Assembly: GCF_000017165.1 (NCBI RefSeq)
Contig: NC_009634.1
Coordinates: forward strand, 448,249-512,248
Source: Methanococcus vannielii SB
Lineage (GTDB): Archaea > AGJL01 > Methanococci > Methanococcales > Methanococcaceae
Reading direction: 5' to 3'
DNA length: 64,000 nt
Every line of letters begins with the position of its first letter. The first letter of the stretch is position 1. This document shows, piece after piece, positions 1,303 to 53,066 of this stretch. Both the position numbers and the translations under genes were made by a program. The notes beneath the pieces are model-generated. The model was not told where the DNA came from, made no database searches, and saw only the letters and a list, made by a program, of their open reading frames with translations.

Positions 1303-2430
1303 TTAAAGAAGAACATTTTTCATTATTTCTATTGCCTTTTCAATGTCTTCATATTTAGTAGCATATGAAAATCTAACCCTGTTTTCACCCTGTTTTCCAA
1401 ATGCTGACCCTGGAACGCATAATATATTATTTTTAATCAATTTTGTTGCAACTTCCATTCCATTACCATATTCACTGACGTCAGGGAATATATAAAATGC
1501 CCCTTCTGGTTTTTGAACATTGAATATATCTTTTAATCCAGTATATATCAAGTTTCTTCTTTTTTCAAACTCTAAAACCATTTCAAAAACGCTTTTTTGG
1601 TCACCAGTAAGTGCTTCAAATGCCCCATATTGAGCAAAAGAAGTTGCGCAAGCAAATCCGTACTGGTGAATTTTCATCATATTTTCAATAAGATTATATT
1701 TTTTATCGAAGTTTTCATTTACTGCTAGATACCCAATCCTCCATCCAGTCATTGAATAAGCTTTTGAAAATCCGTTAATCACTATTGAATTATCGGTAAA
1801 TTCCATTGCAGAATAATGTTTTTTCCCATAAATTATTTTTTCATAAATTTCATCAGAAATTACTGTAATATTGTTATCCCCTGCAATTTCACAGACTCCT
1901 TTGATTTCTTCTTTTGTTATTACGCTTCCAGTAGGGTTTGAAGGCGAATTTAAAATTATACATTTCGTTTTTTTAGAAATGTTGTTTTTTAGGGATTCTA
2001 AATCAATTTTAAATTTATCATCAAGATTTACCGGAATAACTTTCCCTTCTGAAAGTTCAGTTAGTCCTTTATACGACACAAATCCGGGGTCAGGAATTAA
2101 AACCTCTTCATTTTTATTAACTAGAGTAAATAATGAAAGCATCAGTGCTTCGGATGCACCACACGTTGTAATAATATTATTTCTTGGAACATCTAAATTA
2201 TTATCTTTTTTTAATTTTTCAGAAATTGCGTTTGTAAGTTCTAAAATTCCTGCATTGGGAGAATAATGGGTTTTCCCATTTAAAAGTGCTGTTTTTGCAG
2301 CCTCAACTATGTTTTTTGGAGTGTCAAAGTCCGGTTCTCCAATTCCCAAATTTATCGAGTTTTCTGTTGCCATGTTAAATATTTTCCTAATTTCGGACTG
2401 TTCTGTTCCTAAACACCTGTTTGAAATCAT
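1303..2430 (-). CDS. PLP-dependent class I/II aminotransferase (aspartate aminotransferase type)
   Basis: Fold-type I aminotransferase of 375 residues. The PLP-lysine motif is clear: NGFSKAYSMTGWRIGY, with Lys in SKAYSMTGWR. Other class I/II marks are LNSPSNPTG, the ISDEIYEKIIYG strand with the cofactor-binding Asp, and the C-terminal NRVRFSYA arginine that binds the substrate carboxylate. It would exchange amino groups between 2-oxoglutarate/glutamate and aspartate or an aromatic partner in the cytoplasm. Substrate cannot be set from sequence alone. AGGTGGT sits just before the ATG. It is transcribed away from the hydrogenase-subunit pair. Confidence 0.88.
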   Translation of the reverse strand: MISNRCLGTEQSEIRKIFNMATENSINLGIGEPDFDTPKNIVEAAKTALLNGKTHYSPNAGILELTNAISEKLKKDNNLDVPRNNIITTCGASEALMLSLFTLVNKNEEVLIPDPGFVSYKGLTELSEGKVIPVNLDDKFKIDLESLKNNISKKTKCIILNSPSNPTGSVITKEEIKGVCEIAGDNNITVISDEIYEKIIYGKKHYSAMEFTDNSIVINGFSKAYSMTGWRIGYLAVNENFDKKYNLIENMMKIHQYGFACATSFAQYGAFEALTGDQKSVFEMVLEFEKRRNLIYTGLKDIFNVQKPEGAFYIFPDVSEYGNGMEVATKLIKNNILCVPGSAFGKQGENRVRFSYATKYEDIEKAIEIMKNVLL

Positions 2431-50440: not shown

Positions 50441-51760
50441 TTAAAGTTCTATAAAACCCCATGGTTTTTTTGTTAGTTTAGATAAGTAAATATTTTTATC
50501 AACGTAACTAGCAAGTTTGCTTGGAGTTTTTGTAATTTTTAGAGCTTTTGAAATTTCAAGTCCCCCTCTTGCAAGAATTGTTTGAGTAACCATTGAATTA
50601 AAATTTTCATAATCTACAGATACTTTTGACTTTTTAAGTTCTTTTTCAATGTATTTTATCGTGGATTTTGAATTAAGGTTAAATTCCGACATTTCAAATT
50701 TTGTGTGTGGTTTTGGAACCATTGGGTTTATACTTACATCGACCTTTCTAACTCGCTCTTTTATCTTTTTTGTAAGCGTTATAATTTCACTTATATCTTC
50801 GGGAGTTTCATTTGGAAATCCTACCATGTAGTAAAGTTTTACCGTGTTAATCCCATGTTTTTTTGCAATTTCTATTGCATTAAATATACTTTCTTCATTT
50901 AGTTCTTTATCAATTAAATTTCTAAGACTTTCGCTTCCAGCTTCAGGTGCAATTGTAAGTGTTTTTAGATTTAAAAGCTTTAAAAGTTCGTCTGTAACTG
51001 TATCGGCCCTTAATGACGACGGAGAAATTAAAACATTTTTTTCCGAAATGTATTCGCAAAGTTCAAGAATGTTTTTATAATCACTTACGGATGGCGCAAT
51101 TAATGCAACTTTATTCGCATCAGTATATTTTAAACCCTCGTCAACTAAGTATTTTAAATCGTCAATTTTTCGATATCTTGGGGGGCTATAAATGCACTTT
51201 GCCATGCAAAATCCGCATTTTCTAATACATCCCCTTCCAATTTCAAGCAAATATGCTTTCCCATATGCTCCAGATTCATGCGTTTGCTGTTTTACAGGAT
51301 AATTATTAACATCAAGTTTTTTTGGGTAAATTCTTTTTATTTTCTTATCTTCATCTAATTTAGACGGTAAAAAAACCCCCTGAACGTTAAAATTTCCATT
51401 TATAAGTTCGTAAAGAATATCAGTATTTTCAATTTCGCCAATAACGAATGCATCAAAAAATTCTGCCATTGGAAGCGGATTTGAAATTGCACAAGGGCCT
51501 CCTGCAATAAAAATGGCATTTTTATTTTTTAATCTTAGTTCTTCAACAATCTTTAAAGCATTAAAATAATCATTTTCATATTGGAGGGTTATTAAAATGG
51601 CATCGTTATTCTTTATTTCTGAATAGTTTTCAATAAAGTATACATTTGAAAAAATATCCCTATAGCTATTTAAGTGGCTATTTAGTACGTGAACTGCAAG
51701 GCATGCAATTCCCCCCGTAAACTTATTGGGATAAACTATAGAAACGTTTTTAATTGCCAT
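50441..51760 (-). CDS. Radical SAM protein with N-terminal B12-binding-like domain
   Basis: Protein of about 439 residues. The N-terminal ~150 residues resemble a cobalamin-binding Rossmann domain (NVSIVYPNKFTGGIACLAVH, AIFIAGGPCAISNPLPMAEF). The radical SAM core has EIGRGCIRKCGFCMAKC, a CxxxCxxC cluster followed by one extra cysteine, and YRKIDDLKYLVDEGLKYT after it. TLTIAPEAGSESLRNLIDKE is the typical later strand. It uses a 4Fe-4S cluster and SAM; the substrate is unknown. The ATG at 51760 is preferred over the one at 51787. A single gene, convergent with nothing nearby. Confidence 0.84.
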   Translation of the reverse strand: MAIKNVSIVYPNKFTGGIACLAVHVLNSHLNSYRDIFSNVYFIENYSEIKNNDAILITLQYENDYFNALKIVEELRLKNKNAIFIAGGPCAISNPLPMAEFFDAFVIGEIENTDILYELINGNFNVQGVFLPSKLDEDKKIKRIYPKKLDVNNYPVKQQTHESGAYGKAYLLEIGRGCIRKCGFCMAKCIYSPPRYRKIDDLKYLVDEGLKYTDANKVALIAPSVSDYKNILELCEYISEKNVLISPSSLRADTVTDELLKLLNLKTLTIAPEAGSESLRNLIDKELNEESIFNAIEIAKKHGINTVKLYYMVGFPNETPEDISEIITLTKKIKERVRKVDVSINPMVPKPHTKFEMSEFNLNSKSTIKYIEKELKKSKVSVDYENFNSMVTQTILARGGLEISKALKITKTPSKLASYVDKNIYLSKLTKKPWGFIEL

Positions 51761-51879
51761 TTTTTTCAGCCCTGACCATTTAACCATTTAAAACAATTTT
51801 TGAAATATTAAAAAAATATAAAATAGTGGTTAAAAACAGTATTTATTTTTTAGTTTAAAAATACCTATCAAAATAAAAA

Positions 51880-51941
51880 TTGGTGTCAGCTCGCCCATCT
51901 TTCCTCATAAATCAGAAGCTACTCCGTTCATCATCCACCAA
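51880..51941 (-). ncRNA. C/D box guide sRNA (2'-O-methylation guide)
   Basis: The minus strand reads, in order: TTGGTG stem, C box ATGATGA, a 12-base guide ACGGAGTAGCTT, D' box CTGA, a 3-base spacer, C' box ATGAGGA, a second 12-base guide AAGATGGGCGAG, D box CTGA, then CACCAA, which pairs with the 5' TTGGTG. This is the full symmetric layout of archaeal C/D sRNAs. By the N+5 rule the guides would methylate the U in AAGC-U-ACUCCGU and the C in CUCG-C-CCAUCUU. A box A-like CTTTAAATTT lies 24-33 bases upstream (51965-51974). The target RNAs are not in this window. Confidence 0.9.
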
Positions 51942-51970
51942 TACTTCGGAAGTAAATTTCATGAAAATTT

Positions 51971-51989
51971 AAAGATTTTTTTAATCTTT
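51971..51989. other. AAAGATT-T5-AATCTTT hairpin
   Basis: A 7-bp stem with a 5-base T loop lies upstream of the C/D sRNA and overlaps its predicted box A. The gap 51761-52118 holds this, the sRNA, and a TATATAAAG stretch near 52020-52028 that may serve thiL. No protein-coding gene is seen. Confidence 0.4.
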
Positions 51990-52118
51990 ACTGTTTCAGA
52001 ACTATTATCTCGGATTTTCTATATAAAGGTGATTGTACCGTATTATAAAATAGAGCTAATTTGAAAATAATATTGAAAATAATTAAACTTACAAAAAGTT
52101 AATGAAAAAAGGGTAAAA

Positions 52119-53066
52119 ATGAACGAGTTTGACATTATTAATATAATTTCAAAAAATATTTCATACAAAAATGGTGTTGAAAGGGGAATAGGGGATGATT
52201 GTGCAGTTTTCAAACTTGAAAATCAGCACCTTGTAATAACTACCGACATGATGTTTAGGTCAACGCACTTTCCAGAAATTCTAACGCCATTTCAAATTGG
52301 AATGAGAATTGTTACAGCAAACGTATCCGATATTGCCGCAATGTGTGCAAAACCGTTAGGAATGGTAATTTCAATGGGATTTGATAAACCCGATTTAAAA
52401 TTTATTGACGAAATGTCTAAAGGAATGAATTTTATTTCAAAAGAGTATGGCTGTCCAATTGTAGGTGGGGACACAAATAAATCAAAAGAATTAACGCTTT
52501 CAGGTACTGCCTTTGGAATTACAAATAACCCCATATATCGGGGTGGAAATTTAGGCAATGAAATATGCATTACTGGAACCATTGGAAGAGTTTTTTGTGC
52601 ATTAAAAATTCTTGAAATGAGTAAAAATGGAATTATTGATAAATTAAAATTTGAAAAATTAATTGAGGAATTTCCAGAAATAATTAAAAAGTTATCTGAA
52701 CCTAAAGCACGTGTTTTAGAAGGAATTTCATTAAATAATGTGGTTACATCTTGTTCAGACATTTCTGATGGACTTTCAAAGGATTTAAACCATGTAGGTT
52801 TCTTTGAAATTTATTCCAAAGAATTATTAAAGGCAGTTCCAAAAGATGTAGTTGAATTCTCAGAAAAATTTGATATAAATTTAATAGATATTGCGTTAAA
52901 TAGTGGCGAAGAATTTGAGCTTTTATTTACAGTTAAAGATTTTAAAAATGCTAAAAAAGTGTTAAAAGGAATAAATACAGTAACTAAATTTGGAAAAGTT
53001 GTTGAATCGGGAAAAACCGTTGATGGAAACAATATTACTTTTGAAGGGTATGTTCATAAGTGGTAA
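52119..53066 (+). CDS. thiL: Thiamine-monophosphate kinase
   Basis: Protein of 315 residues of the ThiL/PurM-like superfamily. GIGDDCAVFKLENQHLVITT (ATP-binding GDD), HFPEILTPFQIGMRIVTANV, SDIAAMCAKPLGMVISMGF, VGGDTNKSKELTLSGTAFGI, CSDISDGLSKDLNHV and LNSGEEFELLFTV are all in the right order. It phosphorylates thiamine monophosphate to the diphosphate, the cofactor of transketolase elsewhere in this window. GGGT precedes the ATG. The archaeosortase gene starts 21 bases after it. Confidence 0.93.
   Translation: MNEFDIINIISKNISYKNGVERGIGDDCAVFKLENQHLVITTDMMFRSTHFPEILTPFQIGMRIVTANVSDIAAMCAKPLGMVISMGFDKPDLKFIDEMSKGMNFISKEYGCPIVGGDTNKSKELTLSGTAFGITNNPIYRGGNLGNEICITGTIGRVFCALKILEMSKNGIIDKLKFEKLIEEFPEIIKKLSEPKARVLEGISLNNVVTSCSDISDGLSKDLNHVGFFEIYSKELLKAVPKDVVEFSEKFDINLIDIALNSGEEFELLFTVKDFKNAKKVLKGINTVTKFGKVVESGKTVDGNNITFEGYVHKW

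Follow-up and report, generated by a model that had tools for sequence, protein, structure and literature searches.

The closest described relative of the RNA analysed here is the archaeal sR2 family (Rfam RF01139), with which it agrees in box layout, in size and in a large part of the guides, whereas several positions of the sR2 consensus guides differ. In the same genus as Methanococcus vannielii, RNA-seq uncovered seven C/D box sRNAs in M. maripaludis C5, according to Dennis et al. 2015 (PMC4644070), who also state that guide-directed sites are lacking from the A-loop of M. maripaludis. A-loop methylation in archaea and eukaryotes (Um2552 and neighbours) concerns helix 92, the same hairpin to which the D guide described below would pair. 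The sites U2552 and C2556 sit in the loop, whereas the base predicted here, C2558, lies in the stem, and there is thus no direct conflict with the A-loop statement of PMC4644070.

We show that a 64-kb stretch of the M. vannielii genome, hereafter the window, contains an ordinary member of the known archaeal C/D class, recognised by an existing public model. From sequence comparison, it is very probably a double-guide sRNA that directs methylation of 23S C2622 and U2502. The news is modest, and consists of a comparative target assignment and of a split duplicate of the same RNA in related genomes.

Anatomy, family and conservation of the element

Direct reading of the minus strand bears out the anatomy that had been predicted, with boxes C, D', C' and D in this order, two guides of 12 nt, a 3-nt spacer and a terminal stem. 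The element lies, as proposed, in a gap, flanked on one side by a radical SAM gene and on the other by a divergent gene with an AIR-synthase-related domain, probably thiL (Table 1). The C' box is one base off the consensus RUGAUGA, and the copy in a same-genus genome (G001) has ATGACGA at this position, which suggests that the C' box is drifting in Methanococcus. The terminal stem is recovered in the computed fold of the sRNA, with a moderate folding z-score of -1.71.

Table 1. Coordinates of the sRNA, its flanking signals and genes, and the tandem copies of a related genome
Feature	Position	Strand	Remarks
Radical SAM gene	50441-51787	-	One flank of the gap
T-rich run TTTTTATTTT, possible archaeal terminator	51870..51879	-	Directly follows the stem; similar T runs after most Methanococcales copies
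Whole C/D box sRNA, sR2-like, including terminal stem	51880..51941	-	Direct reading; Rfam RF01139; 34 Methanococcales copies read
Terminal stem 3' arm CACCAA	51880..51885	-	Pairs with TTGGTG
D box CTGA	51886..51889	-	Direct reading; invariant
D guide AAGATGGGCGAG, 12 nt	51890..51901	-	Predicted 2'-O-methylation target 23S C2622 (E. coli C2558, helix 92)
C' box ATGAGGA, variant	51902..51908	-	Direct reading and comparison; most relatives RTGATGA
D'-C' spacer TTT	51909..51911	-	Direct reading; 3 nt in most copies
D' box CTGA	51912..51915	-	Direct reading; invariant
D' guide ACGGAGTAGCTT, 12 nt	51916..51927	-	Predicted 2'-O-methylation target 23S U2502 (E. coli U2438)
C box ATGATGA	51928..51934	-	Direct reading; invariant across Methanococcales
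Single G between TTGGTG and C box		-	Direct reading
Terminal stem 5' arm TTGGTG	51936..51941	-	Pairs with CACCAA
Weak TATA-like TTTAAATT	51966..51973	-	Spacing where relatives have a clear TATA; from upstream comparison
TTTATATA, about 80 nt upstream of the sRNA	52020..52027	-	Conserved in G001, G003, G004; from upstream comparison
Gene with AIR-synthase-related domain	52119-53066	+	Other flank of the gap; divergent
Tandem sR2-like pair of G005 (L070)	1502-1556 and 1639-1704		Also in L069 (G002) and L071 (G006)

The assignment to the guide RNA class made in the original prediction is supported by the family match, by conservation in the order and by the presence of the protein partners in the genome. 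The sR2 model is matched over its full length (1-57 of 57) at 51884-51938, with 55.6 bits against a gathering cut-off of 42 and an E value of 2.2e-9 for the window, where it is the sole Rfam match above cut-off. A strict C-D'-C'-D pattern occurs once in the window and in none of 60 random windows, drawn from a first-order Markov model with the length and composition of the real one; this single match, together with the Rfam match, indicates that the element is more than chance. The M. vannielii genome encodes fibrillarin (PF01269, 3.1e-97) and Nop5 (PF01798, 1.4e-70). By analogy with the class, we infer that the RNA is transcribed and assembled into an RNP, in which the C/D motif would fold as a k-turn and the C'/D' motif as a k-loop, both binding L7Ae, and Nop5 and fibrillarin would join after L7Ae.

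Within the order, RF01139 is matched in 34 of the 36 Methanococcales genomes searched, the two others being incomplete, and also in the M. jannaschii control. Near-identical copies are present in three genomes of the genus (G001, G003 and G004), among which M. maripaludis may be represented. Conservation of the boxes in related Methanococcus genomes had been set beforehand as a test, and it extends to the whole order, since both box pairs are present in 34/34 copies; conservation covers the C and D boxes, the terminal stem and most guides. The inner four pairs of the stem are likewise retained in every copy, and pair 2 is T-A in 20 genomes, with C-G in the other 14, a split that follows the two families and is, from the aligned copies, a compensatory change. 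At least one flanking gene is retained in eight within-family relatives, both are retained in five or more, and neither is found elsewhere; the sRNA persists outside the family and is therefore conserved beyond its neighbourhood.

The flanking signals are less regular. In most relatives, a clear TATA box precedes the stem by about 30-35 nt. The box A-like stretch that had been placed upstream in M. vannielii does have a counterpart at that spacing, but only the weak TTTAAATT, and the better motif, TTTATATA, is found farther away. Judged from its position, TTTATATA (52027-52020) may serve either the sRNA or the divergent gene at 52119. On the minus strand, the region 52027-52007, which comprises TTTATATA and a downstream AATCCGAGATA stretch, is conserved in G000, G001, G003 and G004, and might either act as an upstream promoter followed by a leader or drive the divergent gene. 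In M. vannielii, short inverted repeats (AAAGATT/AATCTTT and ACTTC/GAAGT) lie between the AATCCGAGATA stretch and the sRNA. A weak TATA at the usual spacing, a variant C' box and only a moderate folding z-score are what one might see if the element were an untranscribed C/D-like sequence, left by decay or arisen by chance. The conservation of boxes, guides and stem in 34 genomes, and the absence of the pattern from the random windows, make the chance that this is the case close to negligible.

Predicted targets of the two guides in 23S rRNA

Scored against M. vannielii rRNA, the only rRNA used with them, the sR2 consensus guides give sites other than the two 23S sites of the M. vannielii guides; family membership alone therefore does not transfer targets. 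Exact complements of the two M. vannielii guides are absent from the rRNA of the genome. The target strings originally proposed, AAGCUACUCCGU and CUCGCCCAUCUU, do not occur there as such, although the bases expected to be methylated, U and C, were correctly named: the conserved 23S sites read AAGC-U-ACCCCGG and UUCG-C-CCAUUAA. When M. vannielii is considered alone, the best helices are reached by 421 and 144 of 1000 shuffled guides. This in-genome pairing is suggestive but not significant, and the guides were therefore scored comparatively, so that the target claim rests on the comparison. The guides of each of 20 genomes were scored against the rRNA of the same genome, in the N-plus-five register and at every homologous site, and E. 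coli numbers were taken from an alignment with E. coli 23S.

For the D guide, the predicted site is UUCGCCCAUU of 23S, with C2622 (E. coli C2558), on the 3' side of helix 92, as the base to be methylated. Over the 20 genomes, this site has a mean helix score of 10.15 against 8.25 for the next best, none of 300 permuted guides performs as well, and the duplex energy is -16.2 kcal/mol. A guide is expected to pair with rRNA or tRNA over about 10-12 nt beside box D or D', position 5 forming a Watson-Crick pair, and the D guide clearly does so. Two 16S candidates for this guide, CUCGCCCACGUG (position 1257) and ACCGCCCGUCAC (1335), were weaker than the 23S site across genomes. Outside the order, two C/D sRNAs (L074 of G056 and L075 of G047) carry an identical D guide, GATGGGCGAG-CTGA, next to unrelated D' guides.

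For the D' guide, the predicted partner is 23S AAGCUACCCCGG, and the base to be methylated is U2502 (E. coli U2438). By total pairing over the 20 genomes, this is the best site (9.72, next 8.05, permutation p 0.013), with a duplex energy of -14.4 kcal/mol; the pairing expected of a guide is present with one internal mismatch, an A-C at position 8. If only the unbroken helix is counted, the GGGCUGUUCGCC site of 23S, pointing at U2616 (E. coli U2552), scores slightly better, with 6.72 versus 6.45 for the U2438 site. As a target, U2552 was set aside because its helix contains four G-U pairs and has an energy of -8.6 versus -14.4 kcal/mol. Position 21 of 16S pairs well in M. vannielii and falls outside the top sites across the order.

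The interrupted pairing and the weaker support for the D' guide, p 0.013 versus 0/300 for the D guide, lend some weight to a reading in which the C/D sRNA is real and only its D guide works, the D' guide having another target (such as 16S or U2552) or none; archaeal guides of this orphan kind have been described (PMC7994747). We consider this unlikely, as most of the D' guide is conserved throughout the order, one of the tandem copies described below retains it, and the version GGGGTAGCTT of it occurs outside the order. The sRNA with that version (L076 of G042) has an unrelated second guide, and its GGGGTAGCTT is a mismatch-free complement of AAGCUACCCC. The reappearance of single guides in otherwise different sRNAs outside the order provides independent support for both targets. 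In Methanococcales, as expected from the sequences of the copies in the order, the GGGGTAGCT version of the D' guide was not found. Some copies of genus g2 (G007, G012, G014, G015, G018 and G020) have a D' guide of 13 nt, CGGTGGTAGCTT plus one base, which may form a bulge instead of the mismatch at the same 23S site.

Among the 30 of 36 tRNA genes examined, no site comparable to those in 23S was found. The string AGCTACTCCG has three perfect matches in the genome, one being the sRNA gene itself and the two others lying outside tRNAs.

In the double-guide reading, then, the D guide would bind helix 92 on its 3' side and lead to 2'-O-methylation of C2622, and the D' guide would pair upstream of it, leading to methylation of U2502. 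The two sites are 120 nt apart in domain V, with the D' site upstream of the D site. Such an arrangement would also suit an sRNA that acts mainly as an rRNA folding chaperone joining two stretches of domain V, with methylation secondary, and a chaperone role of dual guides is proposed by Dennis et al. 2015 (PMC4644070). No evidence presented here separates this role from methylation; the guides are found in separate RNAs in three genomes (G002, G005 and G006), where the physical coupling is thus not kept, and we regard a primarily chaperone role as very unlikely.

Tandem copies in three Methanococcus genomes

In these three genomes of the same genus, the first copy looks degenerate, its D guide being replaced by TTTTGATCCTA. 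The guide missing from this copy was recovered by a pattern search: it lies about 180 nt downstream of where the first copy starts, within a second C/D-like RNA that has its own stem, TTAGTG/CACTAA, and in which the D' guide is replaced by ATCTTTATCTT. Of the two guides, the first copy therefore keeps D' alone and the second D alone. Both score against sR2, below its cut-off. For the replaced guides TTTTGATCCTA and ATCTTTATCTT, the search for rRNA targets returned weak sites, none of them convincing.

The simplest reading of the paired copies is a tandem duplication followed by complementary guide loss. We lean towards the view that this took place in one Methanococcus lineage and that the copies now divide the work, with U2438 as the sole target of one and C2558 as that of the other. 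The retention of one guide by each copy is the pattern expected if both guides matter. If true, the split copies would be a clean case of subfunctionalisation of a guide RNA, with each guide separately under selection.

Significance for rRNA methylation in Methanococcus

This sRNA has been kept across the order, and both of its predicted bases are near the peptidyl transferase centre. Since only a handful of C/D sRNAs is reported for mesophilic Methanococcus (seven in M. maripaludis), those that survive probably mark the methylations that matter most. In this respect, the sRNA and its split duplicate provide a small, genetically tractable way to ask which methylations of rRNA are required.
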